This document shows, piece after piece, positions 1,944 to 41,024 of a stretch of DNA of 64,000 bases. Each line of letters begins with the position of its first letter. Within the stretch, counting starts at the first letter, position 1. The notes beneath the pieces are model-generated. The model saw only the letters and a program-made list of their open reading frames with translations. It made no database searches and was not told the origin of the DNA. Location of the stretch: assembly GCF_023150065.1 (NCBI RefSeq), contig NZ_JAKLLN010000005.1, forward strand, positions 62,001 through 126,000, read 5' to 3'. The position numbers and the translations under genes are program-made. This DNA comes from Zoogloea sp. (GTDB taxonomy: Bacteria > Pseudomonadota > Gammaproteobacteria > Burkholderiales > Rhodocyclaceae).

Positions 1944-3669
<1,726 letters not shown>

Positions 3670-17521: not shown

Positions 17522-17537
17522 TGTCGCAAGCCCGACA
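17522..17537 (+). promoter_or_regulatory. NifA upstream activator site 1 for nifB
   Basis: The sequence is TGT-N10-ACA, the consensus NifA enhancer. It lies 95 bases upstream of the -24 element of the nifB promoter and 41 bases, close to four helical turns, from the second site. Confidence 0.75.
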
Positions 17538-17562
17538 TGCCCCCCGGGGCCGGCCGCCGATT

Positions 17563-17578
17563 GTCTCGACCGCGACAT
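17563..17578 (+). promoter_or_regulatory. NifA upstream activator site 2 for nifB
   Basis: This is a second exact TGT-N10-ACA, 54 bases upstream of the -24 element. Paired NifA sites ahead of a sigma-54 promoter are usual for nif operons. Confidence 0.75.
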
Positions 17579-17632: not shown

Positions 17633-17648
17633 TGGCATGGATCTGGCT
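17633..17648 (+). promoter_or_regulatory. Sigma-54 promoter of the nifB operon
   Basis: TGGCAT-N5-TGGCT keeps the essential GG at -24 and GC at -12 with the correct spacing; it differs from consensus (TGGCAC-N5-TTGCW) at two bases. Transcription would start near 17660, giving a leader of about 47 bases before nifB. The 300-base gap 17407-17706 otherwise holds only the two NifA sites. Confidence 0.72.
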
Positions 17649-17706: not shown

Positions 17707-19278
17707 ATGCAAAGCGCCTATATCAGCCTTGGTGACCTGAAAGCCAATCGCAACGCACTGGCCGAGCCCGTCGCCAGTGAATCCGCCGGGGGCTGTTCCA
17801 GCTCCGGTGGTGCCGGCAAGTCCAGCTGTGGTTCGTCGGGTGGCCCCGACGACATGCCCAGCGAGATCTGGGACAAGGTCAAGAACCACCCCTGCTACTC
17901 CGAGGAGGCCCACCACCACTTTGCCCGCATGCACGTGGCGGTGGCGCCGGCCTGCAACATCCAGTGCAACTACTGCAATCGCAAGTACGACTGCAGCAAC
18001 GAGAGCCGCCCCGGCGTGGTCAGCCAGAAGCTGACGCCCGACCAGGCGGTGAAGAAGGTGCTGGCGGTGGCCAGCGAGATCCCGCAGATGACAGTGCTCG
18101 GCATCGCTGGCCCCGGCGACGCCCTGGCCAATCCGAAGAAGACCTTCGACACCATGCGCCAGCTCACCGAGAAGGCGCCGGACATCAAGCTGTGCCTGTC
18201 CACCAACGGCCTGGCCCTGCCGGAGATGGTGGACGAGATCTGCAAGCACAACATCGACCACGTCACCATCACCATCAACATGGTGGACCCGGAGATCGGC
18301 GCCAAGATCTATCCGTGGATCTTCTGGAACCACCAGCGGGTCACCGGCGTCGAGGCCGCGCGCATCCTGCACGAGCAGCAGATGAAGGGCCTGGAGATGC
18401 TCACCGCCCGCGGCGTGCTCACCAAGATCAACTCGGTGCTGATCCCGGGCATCAACGACGAGCACCTGATCGAAGTGAACCGCGAGGTCAAGAAGCGCGG
18501 CGCCTTCCTGCACAACATCATGCCGCTGATCAGCGAGGCCGAGCACGGCACCCACTTCGGCCTCACCGGCCAGCGCGGCCCCAGCGCCCAGGAGCTGAAG
18601 GCCGTGCAGGACGCCTGCATGGGCGGCGCCAACCTGATGCGCCACTGCCGCCAGTGCCGCGCCGACGCGGTGGGCCTGCTGGGCGAAGACCGCAGCGAGG
18701 AGTTCACCCTCGACAAGATCGAGGAGATGGACATCGTCTATGACATCGACAAGCGCCGCGCCTACCAGGAGAAGGTCGAGGCCGAGCGCCAGGCCCAGCA
18801 CCAGGCCAAGGTGGACGCCCTGGCCGATGCGCTGGACGCCAGCCTGATCGCCGGCCAGGAAGACCTCAAGGTGCTGGTGGCCGTGGCCACCGAAGGCCAG
18901 GGCCGGGTCAATCAGCACTTCGGCCACGCCACCGAATTCCAGATCTTCGAAGTGAGCCGCAAGGAGGCCCTGTTCGTCGGCCACCGCCGCGTCGATCTGT
19001 ACTGCCAGGGCGGTTACGGCGAGGACGAGCAGCTGCCCTCCATCGTCAATGCCATCAACGACTGCCACGCCGTGCTGGTCTCCAAGATCGGCGCCTGCCC
19101 CCGCGATGAGCTGAAGGCCGCCGGCATCGAGCCGGTCGAGGAGTACGCCCACGAGTTCATCGAGAAGGCCGCCCTGACCTGGTTTGCCGACTACTGCACC
19201 CGGGTGGCCAGCGGCGCCATTGCCCACCAGGAGCGCGGCGACGCCCGCATCCGCCAGGGCGCCGTGATGGCGGCCTGA
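17707..19278 (+). CDS. nifB: NifB, nitrogenase FeMo-cofactor biosynthesis radical SAM enzyme
   Basis: NifB has 523 residues and fuses two 4Fe-4S clusters with a carbide carbon to form NifB-co, the precursor of FeMo-cofactor. The radical-SAM motif is CNIQCNYC (about residues 82-89), followed by further cysteines in KYDCSN. After residue 380 comes a NifX/NafY-like cofactor-binding domain ([21 protein letters not shown]), so this is the long fused form typical of proteobacteria. The ATG at 17707 is preceded by AAGGAG. The serine-, glycine- and cysteine-rich N-terminus ([10 protein letters not shown]) is also usual. It is first in an operon led by a sigma-54 promoter with two NifA sites. Confidence 0.98.
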
Positions 19279-19320: not shown

Positions 19321-19515
19321 ATGGCCCTCAAGATCATCGGTTCCACCTGCTCCGGTTGCTCCGCCTGCGACCCGGAATGCCCCAACGACGCCATCCGTGA
19401 AAAGAGCGGCGTCTTCATCATCGACCCGGCCAAGTGCACCGAGTGCGAAGGCCACTACGACACGCCCCAGTGCGTGGCGGTGTGCCCGGTCGATGGCTGC
19501 ATCGTGAAGGCCTGA
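19321..19515 (+). CDS. fdxN: 2[4Fe-4S] ferredoxin, FdxN type
   Basis: This 64-residue ferredoxin has CSGCSACDPECP and a second motif CTECEGHYDTPQCVAVCP, with the longer spacing between the second and third cysteines found in nif-linked ferredoxins. It follows nifB by 42 bases and has a ribosome site in TAGGAGACC. FdxN-type ferredoxins are thought to supply electrons to NifB or nitrogenase reductase. It is very likely part of the nifB operon. Confidence 0.95.
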   Translation: MALKIIGSTCSGCSACDPECPNDAIREKSGVFIIDPAKCTECEGHYDTPQCVAVCPVDGCIVKA

Positions 19516-19517
19516 TC

Positions 19518-19901
19518 ATGCTGCCCAATGTGATTGTGAATCCGGCCGCCGAAAAGTTCATGCGCCGCATGGTGCGTTTTGCGGGCCAGGGCGAGGGCGC
19601 CGGCTTTCGCCTTACGGTAAGTGCGGGCGGCTGCTCGGGCTACAGCTCCGAGTTCACCGTCGAGGGCGCGCCCCTGGCCGGTGACGAGGTGCTGGCGGTC
19701 GGCGATCTCAAGCTCTTCCTGCCGGCCGAATCGCGGCTGATGCTGGATGGCGTGACCATCGACTTTTCCGACACCCCCACCGCCAGCGGTCTGACCTTCT
19801 TCAACCCCAACGCCGGTGCCTGTGGCTGCTCCTCCAGCAGCACCAGCGCGCCGCCGCCGGGGGTGGTGAAGGTAGACATCGGCTCCATCCGGCGCAGCTG
19901 A
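19518..19901 (+). CDS. IscA/HesB-family iron-sulfur assembly protein of the nif cluster
   Basis: The 127-residue protein has an A-type scaffold domain with the three expected cysteines, one in SAGGCSGYSSEF and two near the C-terminus in GACGCSSSS. A-type proteins bind Fe or Fe-S clusters and pass them to targets; the nif-linked form is often called IscA-nif or HesB. It starts two bases after the fdxN stop codon, so the two are probably translationally coupled. The tail after the CGCS motif (about 25 residues) is longer than in housekeeping IscA. Confidence 0.92.
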   Translation: MLPNVIVNPAAEKFMRRMVRFAGQGEGAGFRLTVSAGGCSGYSSEFTVEGAPLAGDEVLAVGDLKLFLPAESRLMLDGVTIDFSDTPTASGLTFFNPNAGACGCSSSSTSAPPPGVVKVDIGSIRRS

Positions 19902-19914
19902 GGCGGGAGTGAGC

Positions 19915-20478
19915 ATGTCGACCAGCGGATCGCCCGGTGTCACCCCCGGCTTCGAGGACGCCGTCCTCGGGGCCGGGCTGACGCCTGCTGTGGAGGCGCT
20001 GATCGACAAGGCCGGCCGCGCCGGCATCGGCGACGAGGGTGCGCTGGAGATGCTGCGGCGGGCCCGTGCCCTGGCACCCGCACACCCCGCGCCGCTGATC
20101 GCCCACTACCGTTTTCATTTCTACGCCAACCGCCTGCCCGAAGCCCGGGCCGTGGCGCTGGAGGCCATCGCCCTGGCGGCCGCCCAGCTCGGCCTGCCGG
20201 CTGACTGGCGCCAGGTGCAACCCCTGGTGGAGTGGGGCCCCGGCCGCCTGGCCGAACTGCGCGCCCACGCAGTGGCTCCACGCTTCTATCTGTTTGCCCT
20301 GAAGGGCTACGCCTACCTCAGCCTGCGCCTCGGCGAGGCGGAGGAGGGCGCCGCCGTGCTGGCCCTGCTCGAACAGCTCGACCCCACCGACAGCCTCGGC
20401 CACCGGGTGCTGGGGGCGGTGCTGGCCCGGGCCGGGCGCGACGTGGACTACGACGAACCCCTGGAGGCCGCGCCATGA
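19915..20478 (+). CDS. nif-associated helical-repeat (TPR-like) protein
   Basis: This 187-residue protein is predicted all-helical, with TPR-like segments (ALEMLRRARALAPAHPAPLIAHYRFHFYANRLPEARAVALEAIALA and, later, FALKGYAYLSLRLGEAEEGAAVLALLEQLDP). It contains no cysteine. I do not recognise a named family. Its place between the IscA-like gene and the LRV gene, with an ATGA-type overlap to the latter, suggests a protein-protein adaptor in Fe-S delivery or nitrogenase assembly. I preferred the ATG at 19915, six bases after GGGAG, over the GTG at 19909. Confidence 0.75.
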   Translation: MSTSGSPGVTPGFEDAVLGAGLTPAVEALIDKAGRAGIGDEGALEMLRRARALAPAHPAPLIAHYRFHFYANRLPEARAVALEAIALAAAQLGLPADWRQVQPLVEWGPGRLAELRAHAVAPRFYLFALKGYAYLSLRLGEAEEGAAVLALLEQLDPTDSLGHRVLGAVLARAGRDVDYDEPLEAAP

Positions 20479-21275
20479 ACACGGCCACCCGGGATGGCGC
20501 CGCCAGCTGGACTCCGAACGAGCCGCCCAGCGTGGACTGGCTCGGCCGCAATCTGGACTGTGGCCGCTGCGTCAATCAGGGCTTGCTGGCCGGCGGCAAG
20601 TGTCAGCCGGCTTTCTCCTGCGTCTTCGATCGCTACGCCAAGCGCATCGACCGTTTCTTCCGCTGGAATCCGGGGCTGGCCAACGACTACCTGGAGTACC
20701 CGTATTTCGAGGTGCGCGCCGTGGCCTCCCGCTCGGCCGACGTGTTCCGCCTGGTCGGGCTGATGCACGACCCGGACGAGACGGTGCGCCTGCACGTGGC
20801 CTTGCGCCTGCCCCAGCGATTGCTGGCCGAGCTGCGCAAGGACCCCGACCGGGAGGTGCGCATCCGGGTCGCCCATCGCCTCGACGCCAACATGCTGGTG
20901 GAGATGGCCGACGACCCGGACTACTTCGTGCGCAAGCTGGTGGCTCAGCGCCTGCCGCTGCCGCTCCTGCCGCGCATGGTGGCCGACCCCGACCAGGAGG
21001 TGCGCCTGGCCGTGGCGGCGCGCCTGCAGGTGCCGGCCCTGCTGGCCCTGCGCAATGACCCGGAGGTGGCTGTGCGGCGGGCGGTGGTGCATCGCCTGCC
21101 GGTCGGCCTGCTGCCCGAAATGGCCGGCGACCCGGCCTGGGAGGTGCGCTGGGAAGTGGCTCAGTACGCCGACCCGGCCCTGGCCCGGCGCCTGCTGCTC
21201 GACGCCGAGGCCGAAGTCCGCGACGCGGCCCGTGCCCGTCTCAACACCCTTGAACCGGAGGCCCGCCATGGGTGA
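20475..21275 (+). CDS. LRV-repeat protein with N-terminal 4Fe-4S domain
   Basis: The 266-residue protein opens with a cysteine cluster (LDCGRCVNQGLLAGGKCQPAFSC) matching the LRV_FeS domain. It continues as at least seven 24-residue leucine-rich-variant repeats of the form D-P-D-x-x-V-R-x-x-V-A-x-R-L. The structurally solved founding member is the Azotobacter vinelandii LRV protein, encoded beside nif genes; its function is still unknown. The ATG overlaps the previous stop by four bases, and the 3' end overlaps nifZ by eight. A role in nitrogenase cluster assembly is inferred from context only. Confidence 0.9.
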   Translation: MNTATRDGAASWTPNEPPSVDWLGRNLDCGRCVNQGLLAGGKCQPAFSCVFDRYAKRIDRFFRWNPGLANDYLEYPYFEVRAVASRSADVFRLVGLMHDPDETVRLHVALRLPQRLLAELRKDPDREVRIRVAHRLDANMLVEMADDPDYFVRKLVAQRLPLPLLPRMVADPDQEVRLAVAARLQVPALLALRNDPEVAVRRAVVHRLPVGLLPEMAGDPAWEVRWEVAQYADPALARRLLLDAEAEVRDAARARLNTLEPEARHG

Positions 21276-21613: not shown

Positions 21614-21868
21614 ATGCTCGAACCGCGCGAACCGAAATACCAGTGGGGCCAGCAGGTCACCGCCACCGCCGACCTGTTCAATGACGGTAGCCACCCGGAG
21701 GTGCCCGAGGACGAGCTCATCGTTGCGGCCGGCACCGCCGGCGAGGTGGTGCAGATCGGCCACCATGAGGAGGCCAACATCCCCGTCTATATCGTTGAGT
21801 TCGGCGCTGCCGAAGGCCGCTCCGGCCGCGTGGTGGGCTGCCTCGAAGAGGAGCTGGCGGCGGCCTGA
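21614..21868 (+). CDS. Second, short NifZ-family protein
   Basis: This 84-residue protein matches the NifZ core (KYQWGQQVTATADLFNDGSHPEVPEDELIVAAGTAGEVVQIG, then IPVYIVEFG and RVVGCLEEEL) but lacks the flanking parts of full NifZ. It starts four bases after the nifZ stop. Tandem NifZ-fold proteins suggest duplication and sub-functionalisation. Family membership is reasonably sure; a separate job is not known. Confidence 0.8.
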   Translation: MLEPREPKYQWGQQVTATADLFNDGSHPEVPEDELIVAAGTAGEVVQIGHHEEANIPVYIVEFGAAEGRSGRVVGCLEEELAAA

Positions 21869-21894: not shown

Positions 21895-22230
21895 ATGATC
21901 CGCCAAGCCAGCGTCACCGGGCCCGGCGAACTCGTCCGCCGGCGCATCCTGCGCGAGCTTGAGGGGCGCAGCCGCTACCGCTACGTGCAGCCGGAGGTGG
22001 CCTGGTGCGACGACGGCTGGCTGATCCGCAGCCCGTGCTGCTCCCGCAACGTGGACCCCGATGGTGGCGTGATCGACATCGCCCGCCTGGAACACCCCGA
22101 GCCCGACGTGTGGCGCCTGTATGCCCGTGACCACGCGGTGGGGCGCTGGATCTGGCAGGCCAGCGCGGCGCGCATCGAGGAGCTGCTGGCGCTGGTGGTG
22201 GAGGACGCACACCGGGTTTTCTGGCCATGA
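21895..22230 (+). CDS. Small conserved nif-cluster protein (possibly DUF3024-like)
   Basis: The 111-residue protein contains RSRYRYVQPEVAWCDDGWLIRSPCCSRNVDPDGGVIDIARL, with a CC pair in SPCCSRN, and ends in VEDAHRVFWP. It has no membrane segment. It resembles small DUF3024-type proteins noted in nif clusters of Azoarcus relatives, from memory and unverified. It is the last gene before a repeat-containing gap that separates it from nifS. Function unknown. Confidence 0.65.
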   Translation: MIRQASVTGPGELVRRRILRELEGRSRYRYVQPEVAWCDDGWLIRSPCCSRNVDPDGGVIDIARLEHPEPDVWRLYARDHAVGRWIWQASAARIEELLALVVEDAHRVFWP

Positions 22231-22539: not shown

Positions 22540-23679
22540 ATGATCTACCTCGACAACAACGCCACCACCCGCCCGCTGCCCGCTGTCGTGGCCGCCATGC
22601 ACGAGGCGCTGACCCAGAGCTGGGGCAATCCCTCGTCGAAGCATGGGGCGGGCGAGCAGGCGCGCAGCCGGGTCACCGAGGCCCGCGCCGCCGTGGCCAG
22701 CCTGCTCAGGGCCCAGCCGGCGGAGCTGGTGTTCACCGCCAGCGCCACCGAGGCCAACGCCATGGCCCTGCACGCGGCCCTGGCCGTGCCCGGGGTGCCG
22801 CGCCGGGTGGTGCTGTCGGCGGTGGAGCATTCCGGGCTTGTGCATGTGGCCAAGGCGCTGGCCGGGCAGGGCGTGGAGGTTCAACGCCTGCCGGTGGATG
22901 AGCGCGGTGTGGTCCTCACCGAAGCCCTGCCGGCCCTGCTGGAGGGTGGGGCGGCCCTGGTGTCGGTGATGGCGGCCAACAACGAGACCGGAGTGATCCA
23001 GCCGGTGGCCGAGGTGCTGCGTCTCGCGAGCGCGGCGGGCGCCCCGGTGCATGTGGATGCCACCCAGGCGGCGGGGCGCATCCCCATTGATTTCACGGAC
23101 CTGGGCGCGCGCTTTCTCAGCGCCTCGGCCCACAAGCTGCACGGGCCCAAGGGCGCGGGCGTGCTGGCGGTGAAGAAGGGCGCGCCCTTCGAATCCCTGC
23201 TCCCCGGCTACCAGGAGCGCAAGCGCCGGGGCGGCACCGAGAACGTGCCGGGCATCGTCGGCTTTGGTGTGGCGGCCCGCCATGCGGAAGCTGCCCTCGC
23301 CGACGCCTCGCGCCTGGCTGCCCTGCGCGACGCCCTCGAGGCGGGCCTGGGCGAAGCCTTGCCGGGTGTGCGGGTGTTCGGTGCCGGTGCGCCACGCCTG
23401 CCCAACACCGCCTGCGTGGCCTTCGGGCTGCTCGACGCGGATGTCGTGCTGCAGCGCCTGGCGCGTGCCGGCATCTGCGCATCCAGCGGCTCGGCCTGCA
23501 GCTCGGGGGGCACCGAGCCCTCTCCGGTGCTGCTGGCCATGGGCGTGGAGGTGGCCGCCGCGCGTGCGGCCGTGCGCTTCTCCCTGTCCGCCGACACCAC
23601 CCCGGCCGAGATCGCCCGCGTCATCGAAACCCTGCAGGCCGCCCTGACACCGCTGCTGGCTGAAGCCGCCAGTGCATGA
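22540..23679 (+). CDS. nifS: NifS, cysteine desulfurase
   Basis: This 379-residue PLP enzyme releases sulfur from cysteine for nitrogenase Fe-S clusters. It shows the N-terminal MIYLDNNATTRPLP, the PLP-histidine region VEHSG, the Schiff-base lysine in SASAHKLHGPKG and the catalytic cysteine in SSGSACSSG. The stop is followed by nifT after 49 bases. No nifU scaffold lies beside it, unlike the standard nifUS pair; it must be elsewhere, or the IscA-like protein may serve. The ribosome site is weak (CACAGGACAACC). Confidence 0.95.
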   Translation: MIYLDNNATTRPLPAVVAAMHEALTQSWGNPSSKHGAGEQARSRVTEARAAVASLLRAQPAELVFTASATEANAMALHAALAVPGVPRRVVLSAVEHSGLVHVAKALAGQGVEVQRLPVDERGVVLTEALPALLEGGAALVSVMAANNETGVIQPVAEVLRLASAAGAPVHVDATQAAGRIPIDFTDLGARFLSASAHKLHGPKGAGVLAVKKGAPFESLLPGYQERKRRGGTENVPGIVGFGVAARHAEAALADASRLAALRDALEAGLGEALPGVRVFGAGAPRLPNTACVAFGLLDADVVLQRLARAGICASSGSACSSGGTEPSPVLLAMGVEVAAARAAVRFSLSADTTPAEIARVIETLQAALTPLLAEAASA

Positions 23680-23728: not shown

Positions 23729-23938
23729 ATGAAAGTCATGCTGCGCAACACCCCCCAGGGCCTGTCGGCCTACGTGCCCAAGAAGGATCTGGAAGAGCCC
23801 GTCGTCGCCCAGGAAAACCCTGCCCTGTGGGGCGGCACCATCACCCTGGCCAATGGCTGGATCCTGGCCCTGCCCGAGATGGCCGCCGAAACCCGCCTGC
23901 CCATCACGGTCGAGGCGCGCAAGGTCGGAGGTGAATGA
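23729..23938 (+). CDS. nifT: NifT/FixU family protein
   Basis: This 69-residue protein matches NifT (MKVMLRNTPQGLSAYVPKKDLEEPVV, then LWGGTITLANGWILALPEM). NifT is widespread in nif clusters, usually next to nifK or nifZ, but has no established function. Here it lies between nifS and a small protein, overlapping the latter in TGATG. Confidence 0.92.
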   Translation: MKVMLRNTPQGLSAYVPKKDLEEPVVAQENPALWGGTITLANGWILALPEMAAETRLPITVEARKVGGE

Positions 23939-24201
23939 TGGCCCTCACCCCCGACGATCTCACCACCCTGGCCAGCCTCGGCAACACCGCGCCCGACGTC
24001 GCCGCCCTGGCGGCGGAGGCCCGCACCCGCTGGCGCGGCATGCGTGTCACGGTGGTGGATGCCCTTGATGTGCGGGGGGAAACCCCGGCCCTCGAAACCG
24101 CATCCGCCAATGTCTTCCTCATGGGCTGCGACGGTCATTGCTGGTCGATGACCGCCGACCCCGCCGCCGCTGCCGGCCTCGTGCTGGCGGCCAGGAGCTG
24201 A
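23938..24201 (+). CDS. Small nif-associated protein of unknown function
   Basis: This 87-residue protein has LTPDDLTTLASLGNTAPDVAALAAEARTRWRGMRVTVVDALDVRGETPAL and ends with MGCDGHCWSMTADPAAAAGLVLA. The C-D-G-H-C motif could bind metal. I recall a small family of this kind (perhaps DUF6129) linked to nif genes but cannot confirm it. The ATG at 23938 lies six bases after GGAGG; an ATG at 23935 is three bases nearer. It is coupled to nifT and to the DegT-like gene that follows two bases later. Confidence 0.7.
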   Translation: MALTPDDLTTLASLGNTAPDVAALAAEARTRWRGMRVTVVDALDVRGETPALETASANVFLMGCDGHCWSMTADPAAAAGLVLAARS

Positions 24202-24203
24202 TC

Positions 24204-25400
24204 ATGGATGCCGCCGTCACCCCCGTGGATGTGGACCACGACGAGGACTGGATCCTGCTGACCGACCCGGACGTCAGCGGCCGCGAACTGGAGCGGGTGA
24301 TCCGGGCCCTGCGCAGCTCCCGCTTGTCCGCCGGCCCCCTGGTGGAGGAGTTCGAGGCCGAATTTGCCGCCCACCATGGCCGCGCCTACGGGGTGGCCAC
24401 CGGCAGCGGCACCATAGGCATGTGGCTGGCCCTGCGGGCCCTGGGCATCGGCCCGGGGGACGAGGTGGTGGCCTGCAGCTATGGCTGGCACCAGACCGCC
24501 CACGCCATCCTGCTCGCCGGGGCGACCCCCAACTTTGCCGAGATCGACTACTGGTCGGGCTGCATCTCCCCGTCGGCCGCTGCCGAGCGCATCGGGCCAA
24601 AGACCAGGGCCATCATCGGCAACAACTGCAACGGCCATCCGGCGGCCTGGAAGGCCCTGCGCCAGCTGGCCGAGTCCCGCGGGGTGGCGCTGCTGGAGGA
24701 CTCCACCGAGGCCATCGGCTCGCGCTACCTGGGCAAGCCGGTGGGCAGCTTTGGCGACCTGTCGGTGTTCGATTTCTCCCAGCCCGGCGCCCTGTGCTGT
24801 GGCGAGGGCGGCATGGTACTCACCGATGATCCCCACCTGGCCACCGAGCTGCGCTACCTGCGGGCCCACCGCCTGTCCGATCGCACCTCCGTGTCCATCG
24901 GCAGCCGCGTGCCCCTGCAGGGTGGCATGAGCGATCTCACCGCCGCCCTGGGCCTGGCCCAGCTCGAGCGCATCGACGAGATCCTGGCCCGCCGCAAGCA
25001 GGTCGAGGCCTACTACCGGGACGAGATGCAGAGCTTCGAGGGCATCAAGCCCCCTTACCTGGGGCCCGACGTGGATGAGGTGCACTGGATGCTCTACGTG
25101 GTGCACCTGGGCGCCCGCTTCAGCGCCAGCTCCCGCGCCCAGATCGTCGATGACCTGGAGGCCGACCTCATCGAGGCCGCCCCCTTCAGCGCCCTCATGC
25201 ACCAGCAGTTCGCCTACCAGGCTTTGGGTGAGGCCTACAACTGCAAGCGCGGCTGCCTGAAGAACACCGAACGCATTGGCGACCGCTCCCTGGCGCTGCC
25301 CTTCTACGGGCAACTGGGCCCCGACGAGGTCCGCTTCCTGGTCAAGACGCTCAAGGACGCCTGCACCAACGTGGGCGCCGGCGCCGCGATCTATCTGTAA
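24204..25400 (+). CDS. DegT/DnrJ/EryC1-fold protein lacking the PLP lysine
   Basis: This 398-residue protein has the whole fold of sugar aminotransferases: RLSAGPLVEEFEAEFAAHHG, VATGSGTIGMWLALRALGIGPGDEVV, the PLP-phosphate and aspartate region VALLEDSTEAIGSRY, and the GEGGMVLTDD signature. The lysine that forms the Schiff base with PLP, normally six residues before the G/A-E-G-G motif, is replaced: here the stretch reads FDFSQPGALCCGEGG, with glycine. It cannot be a conventional transaminase. It sits in a tight row with nifT and a SIR2-like gene, so a nif-related role is likely but unknown. Confidence 0.85.
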   Translation: MDAAVTPVDVDHDEDWILLTDPDVSGRELERVIRALRSSRLSAGPLVEEFEAEFAAHHGRAYGVATGSGTIGMWLALRALGIGPGDEVVACSYGWHQTAHAILLAGATPNFAEIDYWSGCISPSAAAERIGPKTRAIIGNNCNGHPAAWKALRQLAESRGVALLEDSTEAIGSRYLGKPVGSFGDLSVFDFSQPGALCCGEGGMVLTDDPHLATELRYLRAHRLSDRTSVSIGSRVPLQGGMSDLTAALGLAQLERIDEILARRKQVEAYYRDEMQSFEGIKPPYLGPDVDEVHWMLYVVHLGARFSASSRAQIVDDLEADLIEAAPFSALMHQQFAYQALGEAYNCKRGCLKNTERIGDRSLALPFYGQLGPDEVRFLVKTLKDACTNVGAGAAIYL

Positions 25401-25417: not shown

Positions 25418-26296
25418 ATGACAACAACGCTAGTTGCCCCCGACACCGCCCCCTCCCAGATCCTGCCTGACGGGCTCCCCGCCAGCCTGGTCGAAGCCCT
25501 GGCCGCCGGCAGCGTCGTGCCCTATCTGGGCCCCCGTGTGCTGGCCCTGGCCGCCGACTATGCTGTGCCGGCCACCCCGGAAGCCCTGGTGGCCCTGCTC
25601 ACCGCGAAGAGCTCCGTCCCCCACAAGATCCGCGGCCGGCTGACCCAGTCGGCCCAGTACATCGAGAACTTCAAGCACCGCAAGACCCTGGTCGGCCTGA
25701 TGAACGAGGCCTTCGCCGCCGCACCCAGACCGTCGCCCCTGCACGAAAGCCTGGCCGGCTTCGGTTTTCCGCTGATCGTCGATGCCTGGTATGACGACGC
25801 CACGGCCGCCGCCCTGGCGGCCTACGCCCCCACCGGGAGCTGGGGCCAGGTCCAGGGCCTGGCCCAGTCGGAGCACTTCGACACCTGGACCGGCTGGTAC
25901 GACGCCGCCGGCGCGGCGGTGCCCGACTGCAACCCGGACTGGAAGACCATCCTCTACAAGCCCATCGGTGCCCATGGCCCGGCCGGCAACTACCTGGTGT
26001 CGGATACCGACTACGTGGAAGTGCTCACCGAGATCGACATCCAGACCCCCATCCCGGTGGAGGTGCAGCGCCTGCGCACGGGCCGCAACTTCCTGTTCGT
26101 CGGCTGTCGTTTCAACGACCAGCTGCCCCGTGCCTTCGCCCGCCAGATCATGAAGCGCTCGTCCGATCGCCACTGGGCCGTGCTCCCCGACGAGCCGACC
26201 CGCATGGAGGCGCGCTTCCTGGCCGAGCAGGGCATCGAGCGCATCCCCCTGGCGCTGGAGGCCTTCGTTCCCGCCCTGCTGGCCCGCCTGGGCTGA
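25418..26296 (+). CDS. SIR2-like (NAD-binding Rossmann) nif-associated protein
   Basis: This 292-residue protein begins its domain with LVEALAAGSVVPYLGPRVLAL, resembling the nucleotide-binding loop of SIR2_2 proteins, and continues with TQSAQYIENFKHRKTL, FPLIVDAWYDD, LYKPIGAHGPAGNYLVSDTDYVEVL and FLFVGCRFND. No zinc-binding cysteine pairs of true sirtuins are seen. Similar proteins are annotated as SIR2 family in other nif clusters, from memory. It follows the DegT-like gene by 17 bases. An NAD-dependent task linked to nitrogenase control is possible, since NAD-dependent ADP-ribosylation is also encoded in this window. Confidence 0.65.
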   Translation: MTTTLVAPDTAPSQILPDGLPASLVEALAAGSVVPYLGPRVLALAADYAVPATPEALVALLTAKSSVPHKIRGRLTQSAQYIENFKHRKTLVGLMNEAFAAAPRPSPLHESLAGFGFPLIVDAWYDDATAAALAAYAPTGSWGQVQGLAQSEHFDTWTGWYDAAGAAVPDCNPDWKTILYKPIGAHGPAGNYLVSDTDYVEVLTEIDIQTPIPVEVQRLRTGRNFLFVGCRFNDQLPRAFARQIMKRSSDRHWAVLPDEPTRMEARFLAEQGIERIPLALEAFVPALLARLG

Positions 26297-26339: not shown

Positions 26340-26636
26340 ATGGCTCAGCTCACCATCCAGCCCTCCGGCAAGGCCGTCGACGTCATCGCCGGCACTACGC
26401 TCCTCAGCGCCATCCTGGCCTCCGGCGAGAGCATCCCCCACAAGTGTGACGGCAAGGCCCAGTGCGGCAGCTGCCACATCTTCATCCAGGAAGGCCGCAA
26501 GACCCTGCCGCGCATCCAGAAGCTCGAGAACGAAAAGCTCGACACCCTGGTGGGCGTCAGCAGCAAGTCACGCCTGGCCTGCCAGACCCTGATGGGCGAA
26601 GAGCCGGTCACCATCGAACTGCTCAGCTTCGTCTGA
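26340..26636 (+). CDS. 2Fe-2S ferredoxin of the nif accessory operon
   Basis: The 98-residue ferredoxin has the plant-type motif CDGKAQCGSCHIF and a final cysteine in SRLACQTLMG. It resembles the short 2Fe-2S ferredoxins found in nif clusters. It has AAGAAGGAAG ahead of the ATG and is the last gene of the row starting at nifB or nifS. It probably supplies or accepts electrons in cofactor assembly; the exact partner is unknown. Confidence 0.9.
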   Translation: MAQLTIQPSGKAVDVIAGTTLLSAILASGESIPHKCDGKAQCGSCHIFIQEGRKTLPRIQKLENEKLDTLVGVSSKSRLACQTLMGEEPVTIELLSFV

Positions 26637-26703: not shown

Positions 26704-28509
26704 ATGAGGTGTTCGCTGCGATCGTTTCCCGTCCTGTTGCTGTTGTTGCTGTGCCCGCTCCTGGTCCCGGCCGCCGAAACCTCCCGCCAGGTCCGTATCG
26801 GTGTCCTGGCCTGGCAGGGGCTCGAGGAAGCGGAGGTGCGCTGGTCCACGCTGATGAATCAGCTGGCCGACCAGTTGCCCGGGCGGGCGCTGGTACTGCG
26901 CCATTTCGATCTGGCCGGTGTGGCTGCGGCGCTGAAGGCCGGAGAGCTGGATTTCGTCGTCACCAACCCCGGGCACTACGTCTTCCTCGAGGCGGAAAGC
27001 GGTATCAGCCGGATCGCCACCCTGGTGGCCGACAACGCGTCCGACCCCGCACATGTGGTGGGGTCGGCGGTGGTGGTGCTGGCCGACCGGCAGGACATCC
27101 AGGCCCTCGCCGACCTGGAAGGGCGCAGCCTCGCTGCCGTATCGCCGGATGCCTTCGGCGGCTACCAGGTGGCCTGGGGCGAGCTGCGCCGGCAGGGGCT
27201 GGACCCGGAGCAGGGCAGGCCCAAGCCTGTCTTCACCGGCTTTCCCATGTCCCGGGTCGTCGAGGCGGTGCTCAACGGCGATGCCGATGCGGGCGTCCTG
27301 CGGGTCTGCCTGCTGGAGCGCCTGGAGCGGGACGGCGCCCTGCGGCCGGGGCAGCTCCGGGTGCTGTCGCCCCGCCCCGGGGCCTCTCCGTGTCAGGCGT
27401 CGGCGCCCCTCTATCCGGGCTGGGCCTTTGCGGCGGCCCCCGACACGCCGCCGGCCCTGTCGCGGGATGTGCTGGTCGCCCTGCTGGCCCTTACGCCCGA
27501 TGCGGCCGGCCAGTCCTGGAGCGTGCCGGCCGACTATCACCCGGTTCATGAGCTCCTGCGCGCCCTGCAGATCGGCCCCTATGCCTTCCTGCGGGAGACC
27601 GCCTGGCCGTCCCTGTGGGAGCGCTACTGGCCCTGGGTGTGCGGGCTGGTCCTTGCCCTGCTCGCCGGGGGGGCCTACACGCTGCATGTGGAGCATCTGG
27701 TCCAGCGCCGGACGCGGGAGCTGACCCAGGCCATGGCGGCGCGGCAGCGCCTCGAGGTGCAGGTGCGGGAGGGGCAGCAGCAGATGGATCATCTGTCCCG
27801 CCTGTCGGTGCTGGGGGAGCTGTCGGGCACGCTGGCCCACGAGCTCAATCAGCCCCTGGCCACCATCGGCAACTACGCCCGCAGCCTGCTGCGCCGGCAG
27901 GACAGCGGGAGCCTGGCCCCCGCGGCCCTGCGTCAGGCCGCCGAGGAGATTGCCAGCGAATCCGAGCGTGCCGCCGGCATCCTGGGGGGCATCCGCGCCC
28001 TGGCCCGCAAGCGCAACCGGGTCCGTGAGGCCCATGACCCGGCGGTACTGGTGGGGGACGCGGGGCGTCTTTTCGCCGGCATGCTGCCCGGTGTCCCCGA
28101 GCTCCAGGTGTGTGGCCGGTGCGATGACCTCCGTGTGTGGGTCGACCCCCTGCAGATCCAGCAGGTGCTGCTCAACCTGTTCAAAAATGCCTGGGACGCA
28201 CAGCAGGCCGCCGCTTGCGGGGCTCCCATCCAGGTCGAGCTGGAGCGTGCCGGCGACCGCTGCATTGTGGCTGTGCGCGATCACGGCCCGGGGCTGGCAC
28301 CCGAGATGCAGGGCCGCCTGTTCGAGGCCTTCTTCACCACCAAGCCCGATGGCCTGGGCCTGGGGCTGTCCATCTGCAAGACCATTGTCGAAGCCCATGG
28401 GGGCGACCTCTCGGCCTCGGCCCCGGCGTCGGGGAAGGGGCTGGTCGTCCGTTTCAGTCTGCCCCTGGCCGACGCGGGCAACAGCGTGGTACGAGAACCC
28501 ATCCGATGA
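26704..28509 (+). CDS. TtrS-like sensor histidine kinase with periplasmic PhnD-type domain
   Basis: This 601-residue kinase has a signal peptide (VLLLLLLCPLLVPAAE) and a periplasmic binding-protein domain of the PhnD type (RIGVLAWQGLEEAEVRWSTLMNQL, then GELDFVVTNPGHYVFLE). One membrane helix near residue 310 (WPWVCGLVLALLAGGAYTL) and a coiled coil follow. HisKA has GTLAHELNQPLATIGNYARS and the ATPase domain NLFKNAWDAQ, DHGPGL and GLGLGLSICKTIV. The layout is that of TtrS, the tetrathionate sensor. Next to it are its regulator and thiosulfate dehydrogenase-like cytochromes, so sensing of tetrathionate, thiosulfate or a related anion is likely. Confidence 0.85.
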   Translation: MRCSLRSFPVLLLLLLCPLLVPAAETSRQVRIGVLAWQGLEEAEVRWSTLMNQLADQLPGRALVLRHFDLAGVAAALKAGELDFVVTNPGHYVFLEAESGISRIATLVADNASDPAHVVGSAVVVLADRQDIQALADLEGRSLAAVSPDAFGGYQVAWGELRRQGLDPEQGRPKPVFTGFPMSRVVEAVLNGDADAGVLRVCLLERLERDGALRPGQLRVLSPRPGASPCQASAPLYPGWAFAAAPDTPPALSRDVLVALLALTPDAAGQSWSVPADYHPVHELLRALQIGPYAFLRETAWPSLWERYWPWVCGLVLALLAGGAYTLHVEHLVQRRTRELTQAMAARQRLEVQVREGQQQMDHLSRLSVLGELSGTLAHELNQPLATIGNYARSLLRRQDSGSLAPAALRQAAEEIASESERAAGILGGIRALARKRNRVREAHDPAVLVGDAGRLFAGMLPGVPELQVCGRCDDLRVWVDPLQIQQVLLNLFKNAWDAQQAAACGAPIQVELERAGDRCIVAVRDHGPGLAPEMQGRLFEAFFTTKPDGLGLGLSICKTIVEAHGGDLSASAPASGKGLVVRFSLPLADAGNSVVREPIR

Positions 28510-29236: not shown

Positions 29237-31288
29237 ATGCGCAGCAGTACCTCAGGCCGGCCAGGGGGCCGGTTCTTCGCGGGCCTCGTCCTCAAGGGCG
29301 CGGCCATTCTGGCGTTCACCGCCGGCTCCGCTCTGGCCGCAGACGCTTCGGTGATCGAGCGGGGGCGCTACCTGGCCCGGGCCGGTGACTGCGTGGCCTG
29401 CCATACCGCCGAGAAGGGCGTTTCGATGGCGGGTGGTCGGGCCCTCGAAACCCCCTTCGGCAAGCTCTATTCCACCAACATCACGCCCGACCGGGAGACC
29501 GGCATCGGCAAATACAGCCTGGCGCAGTTCGACCGGGCGATGCGCAAGGGTGTGGCGGCGGACGGCCACAACCTGTATCCCGCCATGCCCTATCCGTCCT
29601 ATGCAAGGATGACGTCGGAGGACATGAAGGCCCTCTACGCCTACCTGATGGAGGGGTTGCCCCCGGTGAAGCAGGCCAACCGGCCCTCCGACATGCATTG
29701 GCCGTTCAGCATGCGCTGGGGCCTGTCCCTGTGGAACTGGGCCTTCCTGGACGCCACGCCCTACAAGGCCGACGCGACGAAGGATGCGGTGTGGAACCGG
29801 GGCGCCTACCTGGTCCAGGGGCTGGGGCACTGCGGTGCCTGCCACACGCCACGGGGTCTGGCCTTCCAGGAGAAGGCGATGAGCGAGACCGGCCCGAAGG
29901 GGCGCCACTTCCTGTCCGGTGAGACGGTCGAGCACTGGCGGGCGCTGAGTCTGCGCGGCCTATGGACGGCGGACGATACGGTCCAGTTCCTGAAGACCGG
30001 CCAGAACCGCTTTGCCGCCGCGTCGGGCAATATGGCCGAGGTGATCATGCACAGCACCCAGCACCTGAAGGACGATGATCTGGTGGCCATGGCCACCTAC
30101 CTCAAGTCCCTGCCGCCGGGCGAGAACGAACTGCCGGCCCCCGGCGTGCCACGCAAGGTGGTGGCCGGTGGCCTGCCCGAGCAGCTCTACAGCAGCCGCG
30201 GCGGCCTGGGGTACGTGCAGTTCTGCGTGGATTGCCACCGTCAGGACGGCAGCGGGGTGCCCAAGGTGTTTCCGCCCCTGGCCGGCAACCCCACCGTTGC
30301 AGCCAAGGACCCCTCCACCCTGGTCCACATCGTGCTGACCGGCGGTCAGACGGTGCCCACGGCCGCCCATCCGCGGGTCTTCGCCATGCCCGGCTTTGCC
30401 CGCCTCAAGGACAGCGAGCTGGCCGAGATCCTGAGTTTTGTCCGCGCCAGCTGGGGGAGCGGAACCGCCGTGAGCACGGCCCAGGTGCGCAAGATGCGGG
30501 CCGCGCTGGACCCCAAGGTGGACACCAGTACTTTCGAAACCCCCCGTCTGGCCGACATGCTGGGCAGCCCCAATGCCCGGCAACTGGTGCGTGGCATGCG
30601 CCTGCACCTGGAAACCCGCGATCTGCTGCCCCAGCACGTGGGCAATGCCCTCAACTGCACCAGCTGTCACCTCAACGCCGGCACGGTGGCCGACGGATCG
30701 CCCTTTGTCGGGGTGTCGGCCTTCTTCCCCAGCTATGCACCGCGGGCGGGGCGTGTGATCAATCTCGAAGACCGCATCAATGGCTGCTTCCGGCGCTCGA
30801 TGAATGGCAAGCCGCTGCCGCCGGAGTCGGCCGACATGAAGGCCATGGTGGCGTACTTCGACTGGATGAAGCGGGAGACCAAGCCTGAGGACAAGGTGCC
30901 CGGCCGGGGCGTGGGCAAGGTCGACCGTACGCTCCAGCCCAACGCCGACAACGGCAAGAAGATCTATGCCGACCAGTGCGCCGTGTGCCACGGCAATGAC
31001 GGGGAAGGCCTGCGCCAGGCTGATGGGCGCTACATCTACCCGCCCTTGTGGGGGGATGCCTCCTTCAACATCGGTGCCGGCATGGCCCGCACCTACACCG
31101 CGGCGGCCTTCGTGAAGCGCAACATGCCCATCGGCTTCCACGGCAAGTTCCCCCTCGGGCAGGGTGGGCTCGGTGACCAGGACGCGCTGGATGTGGCCGA
31201 GTATTTCAGCCACCAGCCGCGCCCCGATTTCCCCGACAAGGTGAAGGACTGGCCGAAAGACAAGAAGCCCGGCGATGCCCGCTACTGA
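29237..31288 (+). CDS. Five-heme cytochrome c fusion: AdhB-like three-heme part plus TsdA-like two-heme part
   Basis: The 683-residue protein has a signal peptide and five CXXCH heme sites at about residues 52, 199, 330, 474 and 581. Residues 35-440 resemble the triheme cytochrome subunit of membrane alcohol/gluconate dehydrogenases (RGRYLARAGDCVACH, STNITPDRETGIG). Residues 450-680 resemble diheme thiosulfate dehydrogenase TsdA (GNALNCTSCHLNAG, INGCFRRSMNG). The cysteine near residue 517 in INGC sits where TsdA has its unusual heme-ligating cysteine. Electrons from thiosulfate oxidation, or to tetrathionate, could thus flow through the fused triheme module. The gene lies just after the TtrSR-like pair. 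Confidence 0.87.
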   Translation: MRSSTSGRPGGRFFAGLVLKGAAILAFTAGSALAADASVIERGRYLARAGDCVACHTAEKGVSMAGGRALETPFGKLYSTNITPDRETGIGKYSLAQFDRAMRKGVAADGHNLYPAMPYPSYARMTSEDMKALYAYLMEGLPPVKQANRPSDMHWPFSMRWGLSLWNWAFLDATPYKADATKDAVWNRGAYLVQGLGHCGACHTPRGLAFQEKAMSETGPKGRHFLSGETVEHWRALSLRGLWTADDTVQFLKTGQNRFAAASGNMAEVIMHSTQHLKDDDLVAMATYLKSLPPGENELPAPGVPRKVVAGGLPEQLYSSRGGLGYVQFCVDCHRQDGSGVPKVFPPLAGNPTVAAKDPSTLVHIVLTGGQTVPTAAHPRVFAMPGFARLKDSELAEILSFVRASWGSGTAVSTAQVRKMRAALDPKVDTSTFETPRLADMLGSPNARQLVRGMRLHLETRDLLPQHVGNALNCTSCHLNAGTVADGSPFVGVSAFFPSYAPRAGRVINLEDRINGCFRRSMNGKPLPPESADMKAMVAYFDWMKRETKPEDKVPGRGVGKVDRTLQPNADNGKKIYADQCAVCHGNDGEGLRQADGRYIYPPLWGDASFNIGAGMARTYTAAAFVKRNMPIGFHGKFPLGQGGLGDQDALDVAEYFSHQPRPDFPDKVKDWPKDKKPGDARY

Positions 31289-36626: not shown

Positions 36627-36642
36627 TGTGCCCTTCCTGACA
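36627..36642. promoter_or_regulatory. NifA upstream activator site between nifH and draTG operons (1)
   Basis: TGT-N10-ACA, exact consensus and palindromic, so it can serve either direction. It is 110 bases from the nifH -24 element. Confidence 0.75.
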
Positions 36643-36655
36643 GCGCTGGGCCCTT

Positions 36656-36671
36656 TGTCGTATTCCACACA
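36656..36671. promoter_or_regulatory. NifA upstream activator site between nifH and draTG operons (2)
   Basis: A second exact TGT-N10-ACA, 29 bases from the first and 81 bases upstream of the nifH -24 element. The remaining parts of the 478-base gap show no gene. Confidence 0.75.
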
Positions 36672-36751
36672 CAGCGCCCAATCGCCTTCCGGAAGCGCTC
36701 TGGAATGAAAAGTTTTAATTAATTCAATGGCTTGAAGAATTTTTTCGCGGT

Positions 36752-36767
36752 TGGCACGGCGATTGCT
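36752..36767 (+). promoter_or_regulatory. Sigma-54 promoter of nifHDK
   Basis: TGGCAC-N5-TTGCT is a perfect -24/-12 consensus. Transcription should start near 36779, giving a leader of about 147 bases before nifH. Confidence 0.92.
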
Positions 36768-36889: not shown

Positions 36890-37807
<918 letters not shown>

Positions 37808-37810
37808 CGC

Positions 37811-37920
37811 GTCGAGAGTCGAGGGTCGAGAGTCGGGGCAGTGCGCGCCGGCTCTCCTCCGGTGCCCCCGGGCACCGGCCGGCACGACCTGTTCTCGACT
37901 CTCCGCTCTCCACTCTCGAC
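37811..37920 (+). ncRNA. Nested stem-loops in the nifH-nifD intergenic RNA
   Basis: An outer, imperfect inverted repeat (37811-37834 against 37897-37920, built from repeated GTCGAGAGTC units) encloses a perfect hairpin with 9-bp arms, CCGGTGCCC and GGGCACCGG (37859-37878), separated by two bases. There is no T run, so it is not a simple terminator. In other diazotrophs such structures stabilise nifH mRNA or lower readthrough, which helps make NifH more abundant than NifDK. Confidence 0.65.
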
Positions 37921-37949
37921 CACTCCATTTGATGACAGGAGCAATGAAA

Positions 37950-39398
37950 ATGAGCCTGACCGTTGATGAAAACAAGGCACTTATCGAAGAAGTGCTGAAG
38001 GCCTACCCGGAAAAGACTGCCAAGAAGCGCGCCAAGCACCTGGGCACCTTCGAGGATGGCAAGCCGGATTGCGGCGTGAAGTCCAACATCAAGTCCCTGC
38101 CGGGCGTGATGACCATCCGTGGCTGTGCCTACGCCGGTTCCAAGGGCGTGGTGTGGGGCCCGATCAAGGACATGATCCACATCTCCCACGGCCCCGTCGG
38201 CTGCGGCCAGTATTCCTGGGCCTCGCGTCGCAACTACTACATCGGTGAGACCGGCATCGACACCTTCGGGACGATGCAATTCACCTCCGACTTCCAGGAG
38301 AAGGACATCGTCTTCGGCGGCGACAAGAAGCTGGAGAAGATCATCGACGAGATCGAGGTCCTGTTCCCCCTGAACAAGGGCATCACCGTCCAGTCCGAGT
38401 GCCCGATCGGCCTGATCGGCGACGACATCGAAGCGGTGTCGAAGAAGAAGGCCAAGGAATACGTCGGCAAGACCATCGTTCCGGTGCGTTGCGAAGGTTT
38501 CCGCGGGGTCAGCCAGTCCCTCGGCCACCACATCGCCAACGACGCGGTGCGCGACTGGGTCTTCGACAAGGTCGATCCGAACAAGAACGCCTTCGAGTCC
38601 ACCCCCTACGATGTGGCCATCATCGGTGACTACAACATCGGCGGCGATGCCTGGTCGAGCCGCATCCTGCTCGAGGAGATGGGCCTGCGCGTGATCGCCC
38701 AGTGGTCGGGCGACGGCACCATCGCCGAGCTGGAGAACACCCCCAAGGCCAAGCTCAACGTGCTGCACTGCTACCGCTCGATGAACTACATCAGCCGGCA
38801 CATGGAAGAGAAGTACGGGATCCCCTGGGTCGAGTACAACTTCTTCGGCCCGACGATGATCGAGAAGAGCCTGCGCGAGATCGCCAGCCACTTCGACGAC
38901 ACCATCAAGGCCAACACCGAGAAGGTCATCGCCAAGTACCGCGGCATGGTCGATGAGGTGATCGCCAAGTACAAGTCACGCCTGCAGGGCAAGAAGGTGA
39001 TGCTCTTCGTCGGTGGCCTGCGCCCCCGCCACGTGATCGGCGCCTACGAGGATCTGGGCATGGAAGTGGTCGGCACCGGCTACGAATTCGGCCACAACGA
39101 CGACTACCAGCGCACCACCCACTACGTGAAGGACGGCACGCTGATCTACGACGACGTCACTGGCTACGAGTTCGAGAAGTTCGTCGAGAAGGTCCAGCCC
39201 GACCTGGTGGGTTCCGGCATCAAGGAAAAGTACGTCTTCCAGAAGATGGGCGTGCCCTTCCGCCAGATGCACAGCTGGGACTACTCCGGCCCGTACCACG
39301 GCTACGACGGCTTCGCCATCTTTGCCCGTGACATGGACATGGCCATCAATTCGCCGGTCTGGGGCCTTGCCAAGGCTCCGTGGAAGAAGGCTGCCTGA
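37950..39398 (+). CDS. nifD: NifD, nitrogenase MoFe protein alpha chain
   Basis: The 482-residue alpha chain carries FeMo-cofactor and part of the P-cluster. P-cluster cysteines are seen in [13 protein letters not shown] and [11 protein letters not shown]. The cofactor cysteine is in [13 protein letters not shown] and the cofactor histidine in [16 protein letters not shown]. It is the molybdenum type, lacking features of VnfD/AnfD. Of two in-frame ATGs (37944 and 37950) the latter is eight bases from AGGAG and is preferred. nifK follows after 66 bases. Confidence 0.99.
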
Positions 39399-39464
39399 AC
39401 CCTCTTCCGGGCGGGGCACAGGCCCCGCCACCCCGCCCTGATTACTGATTCTAGGAGTGCTGTC

Positions 39465-41024
39465 ATGCCCCAAAATGTTGATAAGGTCCTCGACCACGAA
39501 AACCTGTTCCGCGAGCCGGAATACAAGGCCATGTTCGACAACAAGCGGAGCCAGTTCGAGTTTCGCGTGCCTGCCGAAGAACTGGCCAAGCAGATCGAAT
39601 ACGCCAAGACCTGGGAATACCGCGAGAAGAACTTTGCCCGCGAAGCCCTGACGGTCAACCCCGCCAAGGCCTGCCAGCCCCTGGGCGCCGTGTTCGCCGC
39701 CGTCGGCTTCGAGAAGACCCTGCCCTTCGTGCATGGCTCCCAGGGTTGCGTGGCCTACTACCGTTCGCACTTCTCCCGGCACTTCAAGGAACCGACCTCC
39801 TGCGTCAGCTCCTCGATGACTGAGGATGCGGCGGTGTTTGGCGGCCTCAACAACATGATCGACGGCCTGGCCAACACCTACAACCTGTACAAGCCCGAGA
39901 TGATCGCCGTGTCCACCACCTGCATGGCCGAGGTGATCGGTGACGACCTGGACGCCTTCATCAAGACGTCCAAGCAGAAGGGTTCCATCCCCGCCGAGTT
40001 CGATGTGCCCTTTGCCCACACCCCGGCTTTCGTCGGCAGCCACATCACCGGCTACGACAACGCCCTGCAGGGCATCATCAAGTACTTCTGGGACGGCAAG
40101 GCCGGCCAGGGCACGGCCCTGACCCGCATCCCCAACGAGTCGATCAACTTCATCGGCGGCTTCGACGGCTTCGTCTGCGGCAACCTGCCGGAGATCCGCC
40201 GCATGCTCGACCTGATGGGCGTCGAGCACACCATCCTGTGCGACCCCTCCGATGTGTGGAACACCCCCACCGACGGCGAGTTCCGCATGTACGACGGTGG
40301 CACCACCAAGGCCCAGGTTGAAGCCGCGATCAACGCCAAGGCCACCATCAGCTTCCAGGGCTACTCCACCGAGAAGACCATGAAGCTGATCAAGGAGCAT
40401 GGCCACGAAACCGCCAGCTTCCATCACCCGATGGGCGTGACCGGCACCGATGCCTTCCTGATGAAGGTCTCGGAGCTGACCGGCAAGCCGATCCCGAAGG
40501 AGCTGGAGCTCGAGCGCGGCCGCCTGGTCGATGCCATCGCCGACAGCCAGGCCCACCTGCACGGCAAGAAGTTCGCCCTCTACGGCGACCCCGACCTCAT
40601 GCTGGGCATGACCGCCTTCCTGCTGGAGCTCGGTGCCGAGCCGGTGCATGTGCTCTCCACCAACGGCGACAAGGAGTGGGCCGACAAGGTCCAGGCCCTG
40701 CTCGATGCCAGCCCCTTCGGCAAGAACTGCAAGGCCTACCCCAAGGCCGACCTGTGGCACATGCGTTCCCTGCTCTTCACGGAGAAGGTGGATTTCCTGA
40801 TCGGCAACACCTACGGCAAGTACCTGGAGCGCGACTGCGGCACCCCGCTGATCCGCCTGGGCTTCCCGATCTTCGATCGCCACCACTACCACCGCTTCCC
40901 CATCTGGGGTTATCAGGGCGGCCTGCGTGTCCTGACCATGCTGCTCGACGAGTACTTCGAGGCCCTCGACGCCAACACCAACGGCATCGGAACCACCGAC
41001 TACTCCTACGACATCATCCGCTGA
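39465..41024 (+). CDS. nifK: NifK, nitrogenase MoFe protein beta chain
   Basis: The 519-residue beta chain completes the MoFe protein. P-cluster ligands lie in [52 protein letters not shown]. Its length and N-terminal extension ([19 protein letters not shown]) match the long NifK of proteobacteria. The ribosome site is TAGGAG. It ends 12 bases before a strong terminator, so nifHDK forms a closed three-gene operon. Confidence 0.99.

Follow-up and report, generated by a model that had tools for sequence, protein, structure and literature searches.

A well-conserved lysine-less "aminotransferase" in the nif operons of some diazotrophic proteobacteria probably does another job for nitrogenase

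Introduction

What does a protein with the fold of an aminotransferase do in a nif operon if it lacks the lysine that forms the Schiff base with PLP? This question is raised by a gene at 24204-25400 on the plus strand of the window, by which we mean the whole 64,000-nucleotide stretch of Zoogloea sp. DNA analyzed here. The initial annotation held that its product of 398 amino acids keeps the DegT fold, the PLP aspartate and the GEGG stretch, that glycine stands where the lysine is expected, and that its place in a tight row with nifT and a SIR2-like gene suggests a new function in the maturation or regulation of nitrogenase. The histidine-type 3-dehydrases of the DegT family, ColD and E1, also lack the lysine and have a histidine in its position.

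Results

The gene starts with ATG, and an AGGAG sequence lies six bases upstream. Residues 26-383 of the 398 matched PF01041 (DegT/DnrJ/EryC1/StrS) at 288.2 bits against a cut-off of 19.8, which places the protein in this family; ten NCBIfam families matched as well, each below its own cut-off. Judged from these matches, the gene encodes a full-length DegT-fold protein, and it has the GEGG stretch common to DegT enzymes. In a phmmer alignment, FDFSQPGALCCGEGG of this protein pairs without a gap with FSFFGNKIITTGEGG of the perosamine synthetase 3bn1, so that the lysine of 3bn1 falls on Gly195, encoded by GGC at 24786-24788 on the plus strand. The fold and the glycine in the lysine position were thus as first annotated.

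Relatives were collected from genomes and plasmid records. A scan of the genomes of the species used patterns made from the window protein alone and gave 58 loci at 60-97% identity, that is, close relatives only. The profile searches of genomes kept the best few candidates per genome under a strict E-value, and their counts may miss diverged members. Among 398 genomes of the phylum there were seven matches; six were lysine-less and nif-linked and one (L073) was an ordinary protein with the lysine. The class, with 369 genomes, gave ten matches, eight of them lysine-less and nif-linked and two (L084 and L085) with the lysine and without nif matches. A second class of the same phylum, represented by 190 genomes, contributed four more: L088 and L089, which have the lysine, and two nif-linked proteins without it. 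As the samples overlap, genomes with the lysine-less protein number 13 in all, the window's own being counted where drawn. Plasmid records added four relatives, two from Paraburkholderia, one from Methylococcus (Gammaproteobacteria) and a broken copy from Bradyrhizobium (Alphaproteobacteria). The counts below refer to 73 aligned nif-linked rows, from which duplicates (L005, L068 and L086), short distant matches (L006-L008), a copy cut at its start (L064) and another DegT protein with the lysine and a stop in the match (L088) had been removed; the broken copy (L076) contributed only a gap to the alignment and was excluded as well.

Position 195 is serine in 42 of the 73 rows, glycine in 16, leucine in nine, alanine in four, and cysteine and glutamine in one each, while the fragments L064 and L076 have glycine and leucine, respectively. 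With these two fragments included, neither lysine nor histidine occurs there in any of the 75 nif-linked members. The Schiff-base lysine of an active DegT aminotransferase is therefore missing from all of them, including the protein studied here, and the histidine of the ColD/E1 dehydrases is found in 0/73 rows. Since glycine is also present in the ten Zoogloea loci of the species scan and lysine is absent from 75 of 75 nif-linked relatives, a sequencing error at this codon is unlikely. The absence of the lysine is a trait of the whole nif-linked clade.

The initial annotation asked if nif-linked members all lack the lysine, and no nif-linked homologue that retains it was found among the 75. 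It also asked if they keep the pair of cysteines, here at 198-199, and just 28 of the 73 rows have it. The glycine between two cysteines had been taken for a meaningful feature, and we rejected this idea since glycine (16/73) and the cysteine pair (28/73) are each in the minority and serine is commoner at position 195. Within the clade the variability of this position is at the 70th percentile and that of position 241 at the 90th. We likewise rejected the idea that a nearby lysine has taken over, because none of the 73 rows has a lysine within residues 186-203. The only nearly invariant lysines of the clade are K282 (73/73) and K384 (72/73); the K282 position is lysine in 0/8 comparison proteins and is peculiar to the nif-linked clade. 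The genome of the window has another DegT protein, L001 (G000:C240:78447-79586), with histidine at the lysine position, which we take to be the arrangement of the ColD/E1-type dehydrases.

The remaining pocket positions were read against Spr1654, a DegT enzyme of solved structure. In the text available from that study, Lys199 forms the aldimine, Ser194 and Thr59 contact the phosphate, which is the main anchor of PMP, Asp170 contacts the ring nitrogen and His173 contacts O3' (PMC5936713). By alignment and spacing, Lys199, Ser194, Thr59, Asp170 and His173 correspond to positions 195, 190, 70, 166 and 169 here. The equivalent of the ring-nitrogen aspartate, Asp166 (GAC, 24699-24701, plus strand), is kept in 73/73 rows and is aspartate in the eight comparison DegT proteins too, as the initial annotation would have it. 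Glu169 is present in 72/73 rows and Thr70 in 61/73. The serine that contacts the phosphate is replaced in all 73 rows by Asp190 (GAT, 24771-24773, plus strand), whereas the eight comparison proteins have serine (six) or alanine (two) at this position. Similarly, Asn141 (AAC, 24624-24626, plus strand) is asparagine in 73/73 rows and histidine or aspartate in the eight comparison proteins. Position 239 is asparagine in 7/8 comparison proteins and glutamine in 59 of the nif-linked rows, with other residues in the rest; position 241 is arginine or lysine in 7/8 comparison proteins and in the nif clade glycine (39), serine (10), asparagine (8) or others. The asparagine and arginine of relatives at these two positions presumably have a role in cofactor binding.

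Fifteen positions are invariant in the clade with a residue absent from all eight comparison proteins. Three of them (E343, N346 and L398) were dropped since few rows fill their columns, leaving twelve in well-filled columns: R60, Y116, W117, N141, D190, E279, K282, R305, F306, N389, I396 and Y397, of which the C-terminal ones lie where the comparison proteins align poorly or end. The nif-linked clade also has a conserved C-terminal tail that is extra relative to DegT aminotransferases. Old anchor positions vary and other residues are newly fixed, so the pocket appears to have changed.

A maximum-likelihood tree was calculated, with the active-site columns kept, from 35 nif-linked DegT proteins and eight others. 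In it the nif group formed one side of a 100/100 branch; the comparison proteins were long-branched and their mutual order is unsafe. The simplest reading would be a single loss of the lysine at the base of the nif group. We propose a nif-linked, lysine-less DegT clade that is marked by its separation from other DegT proteins, by D190 and N141, by the lack of Lys195 and by location in a nif cluster, and the protein studied here shows all of these marks.

Pairwise dN/dS between the gene and six Zoogloea loci was 0.163, 0.117, 0.114, 0.165, 0.033 and 0.050; against three other genera the values were higher, at 0.311, 0.433 and 0.403. Within Zoogloea, nifB ranged from 0.05 to 0.32 and the SIR2-like gene from 0.07 to 0.38. 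The DegT-like gene is under purifying selection within Zoogloea. Two damaged copies were also seen. At 7814-8951 of L076, a plasmid of Bradyrhizobium sp. BWA-3-5, the DegT-like match is in two pieces within a nif cluster and has no listed gene, in a record whose gene table omits pseudogenes. At 2948-3052 on the minus strand of L092 (G593), the last ~35 DegT-like residues remain, flanked by the 88-aa and SIR2-like genes, a natural deletion that spared the C-terminal tail. From the broken copy and the remnant it follows that the gene can be lost.

The DegT-like gene is part of a row of genes on the plus strand that begins with nifB at 17708-19278 (TIGR01290, 676 bits; ATG read by eye). It is followed by an IscA-like iron-sulfur assembly gene at 19434-19901, named after the annotated genes that are syntenic with it in L074 and L075, and by genes for an LRV protein with an FeS4 cluster domain at 20475-21275 (PF01816, PF05484), a NifZ-domain protein at 21614-21868 (PF04319), a DUF3024 protein at 21895-22230 (PF11225) and a NifS-like cysteine desulfurase at 22540-23679, which scored below the TIGR03402 cut-off. 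After nifT (23729-23938; TIGR02934, 104.8 bits) comes an 88-aa gene at 23935-24201 that has no Pfam match itself; the genes found in its place in relatives match DUF6129, in one case above and in another below the cut-off. The DegT-like gene begins two bases past the end of this gene, and 17 bases separate its stop from the start of the SIR2-like gene at 25418-26296 (PF13289), behind which a 2Fe-2S ferredoxin is encoded at 26340-26636 (PF00111). The row is as tight as the initial annotation described it. Genes of the NifH and nitrogenase component 1 types are at 36926-41024. The operon is directly followed by a gene for a histidine kinase whose sensor domain is of the phosphonate-binding type (26704-28509) and then by one for a cytochrome c with several domains, among them one of the SoxA/TsdA type (29237-31288).

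The same neighbours recur in the close loci, counted only where a locus was long enough to tell. The SIR2-like gene and nifT were each present in 56/56, the NifZ gene in 52/52, the DUF3024 gene in 53/53, the 88-aa gene upstream in 55/56, the NifS-like gene upstream in 53/54 and the ferredoxin gene downstream in 50/52; for nifB, the IscA-like gene and the LRV_FeS gene the counts were 43/44, 49/50 and 48/51. No nifT was seen beside L069 and L071 within roughly 1.5 kb around each. We considered that the protein might be a dead partner of the NifS-like desulfurase. This idea was weakened by the absence of the NifS-like gene in L046, by L080 and L081, where DUF3024 adjoins nifT without a NifS-like gene, and by the lack of a NifS-like match in roughly 1.5 kb around L069-L071.

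Upstream of nifB, at 17522-17577 on the plus strand, there are two TGT-N10-ACA sites, which we take to be the consensus of NifA-type sites, and a sigma54-type site with two mismatches is at 17633. Just upstream of nifH (36627-36767) a sigma54-type site without mismatches is at 36752, together with two sites of the NifA type. Since the counts of both types of site over the whole window are no higher than expected by chance, the sites at most suggest NifA control.

The distribution of the protein was compared with that of nifB. In the class sample nifB is present in 32/369 genomes, and the lysine-less protein occurs in 8/32 nifB-positive genomes and in 0/337 others; in the second class it occurs in 2/8 and 0/182, respectively. 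The lysine-less protein is confined to nifB-positive genomes in these two samples, which bears out the tie to nif clusters assumed in the initial annotation. About three quarters of the nifB-positive genomes (24/32 and 6/8) are without the DegT-like gene, indicating that nitrogenase can do without the protein. A PF01041 protein of some kind is present in 29 of these 30 genomes, many of which are fragmented, and none was seen in a nif operon among them. Of the PF01041 proteins that share a contig with nifB, the closest to it is in G666, 8.3 kb away on the other strand and beyond genes that by eye resemble those of an ABC transporter; this protein has 27% identity and the lysine.

Every one of the 13 genomes that carry the lysine-less protein gave a SIR2-like match with E below 1e-65. 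Among the 30 nifB-positive genomes that do not carry it, five gave such a match, 17 only a weak one (E 1e-14 to 1e-23) and eight none. The range of the DegT-like gene is thus nested within that of the SIR2-like gene. The SIR2-like gene itself is more widespread, matching 73 plasmid records, 55 of them from Rhizobium, and weaker relatives at 25-29% identity share a contig with nifB in several genomes.

Discussion

We propose that the gene encodes a PLP-independent DegT-fold protein, a pseudo-aminotransferase, that is dedicated to nitrogenase, a reading to which we give a probability of roughly 0.6. From the residues at its active site, we infer that the protein would form no aldimine and catalyze no transamination, and it very probably does not bind PLP. 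Selection and the clade-specific fixed residues indicate that it still works. Most of its neighbours with known domains, namely NifB, the IscA-like protein, LRV_FeS, NifZ, the NifS-like protein and the ferredoxin, concern metalloclusters, and for this reason a partner in the assembly or regulation of nitrogenase is the most economical role.

The main rival explanation gives the rebuilt pocket an enzymatic or ligand-binding role. The protein would be a new enzyme that operates without a Schiff base, or a sensor of some small molecule, for instance a nucleotide or sugar nucleotide, and its SIR2-like neighbour might take part. The working residues would be D166, E169, D190, N141, N143 and H145, which are found in 69 to 73 of the 73 rows, a degree of conservation that a scaffold alone would not require, and the presence of the SIR2-like gene in all 13 genomes examined that have the lysine-less protein points the same way. 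Against our main proposal, the conserved pocket residues suit a new enzyme or sensor no less than a scaffold. The spatial arrangement of these residues is assumed from homologues, and we regard this rival as possible but tentative. About as tentative is a composite in which a sugar aminotransferase stripped of its PLP would use its pocket (D166, E169, D190, N141 and the new tail), along with the SIR2-like protein, to sense or handle a ligand that controls metallocluster assembly.

Explanations that keep the cofactor fare worse. The retention of D166 for the ring nitrogen and of E169 near O3' could mean that PMP or PLP is still used and held non-covalently, as in ColD and E1. This is improbable, since no row has histidine at position 195, the phosphate-contacting serine is aspartate throughout, Thr70 is retained in only 61/73 rows, positions 239 and 241 have changed, and the phosphate is the main anchor of PMP in the part of the Spr1654 report available (PMC5936713). 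A protein that remains a PLP enzyme because another lysine has taken over the Schiff base is more improbable yet: K282 and K384 are conserved and the former is clade-specific, but residues 186-203 are free of lysine in all rows, K282 is far downstream in sequence and the remaining cofactor anchors have changed too. We give the least credence to a functionless relic on its way out, for although the Bradyrhizobium plasmid copy is broken and G593 retains a C-terminal remnant, dN/dS is 0.03-0.17 within Zoogloea, residues are invariant across the 73 rows, and the place beside nifT and the SIR2-like gene is kept in 56/56 close loci.

If the protein is a PLP-independent factor for nitrogenase, the dimeric fold of the DegT family is probably kept, and the rebuilt pocket and the conserved C-terminal tail would bind a partner or ligand. 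It may then help in the assembly (maturation) or the regulation of nitrogenase or of its iron-sulfur clusters, and might act with the SIR2-like and the 88-aa (DUF6129-like) proteins.

The nif-linked clade shares its fold family and length, the ring-nitrogen aspartate, the SGT loop and the GEGG stretch with the DegT sugar aminotransferases, such as GDP-perosamine synthase (3bn1), ArnB (1mdo/4oca) and Spr1654. In contrast to them, it lacks the Schiff-base lysine, has aspartate for the phosphate serine, has replaced the asparagine and arginine of GxNxR and carries the extra C-terminal tail. With ColD and E1 it shares a DegT fold without the lysine and differs in never having histidine at position 195 (0/73) and in its changed cofactor anchors.

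A DegT protein has been listed under nitrogen fixation before. The portion of PMC3899966 available lists BRADO5411 of Bradyrhizobium ORS278 under nitrogen fixation as a putative DegT aminotransferase, near genes for a 2Fe-2S ferredoxin, NifZ, LRV FeS4 and a SufA-like protein, which are neighbours as here; nothing on its lysine or function was found in that portion. Judged by these neighbours and not by its sequence, BRADO5411 probably belongs to the nif-linked lysine-less family. A SIR2-like gene, ZMO1821, is likewise inside the nif cluster of Zymomonas mobilis, whose 31 genes listed in the available part of PMC8594446 name no DegT protein. Trypanosomatids offer an example of an inactive enzyme that is retained as a working partner, namely a catalytically dead paralogue of deoxyhypusine synthase (PMC3663545, text available in part). 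This is an analogy only: that protein is unrelated, and it acts by activating its own active paralogue, a mode of action for which we saw no evidence in the DegT-like protein. In the open-access literature we did not find a lysine-less DegT protein described in nif clusters. What was known is the DegT fold family and the listing of one putative member under nitrogen fixation; what appears to be new is a lysine-less, nif-linked variant of that fold.

Public records label three of the plasmid relatives as aminotransferases, a label that their residues contradict. If the composite reading, with a pocket that senses or handles a ligand, is true, roughly one in four nifB-positive genomes of the two samples (8/32 and 2/8) would have an unrecognized nitrogenase module. 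The DegT-like gene marks an uncharacterized part of the nif operon, near nifT and the 88-aa, SIR2-like and DUF3024 genes, whose roles are unclear, and a dead enzyme under selection in nif clusters would offer a handle on the role of that part. It also bears on the definition of complete gene sets for the transfer of nitrogenase. We conclude that some diazotrophic proteobacteria keep in their nif operons a well-conserved lysine-less "aminotransferase" that probably does another job for nitrogenase.
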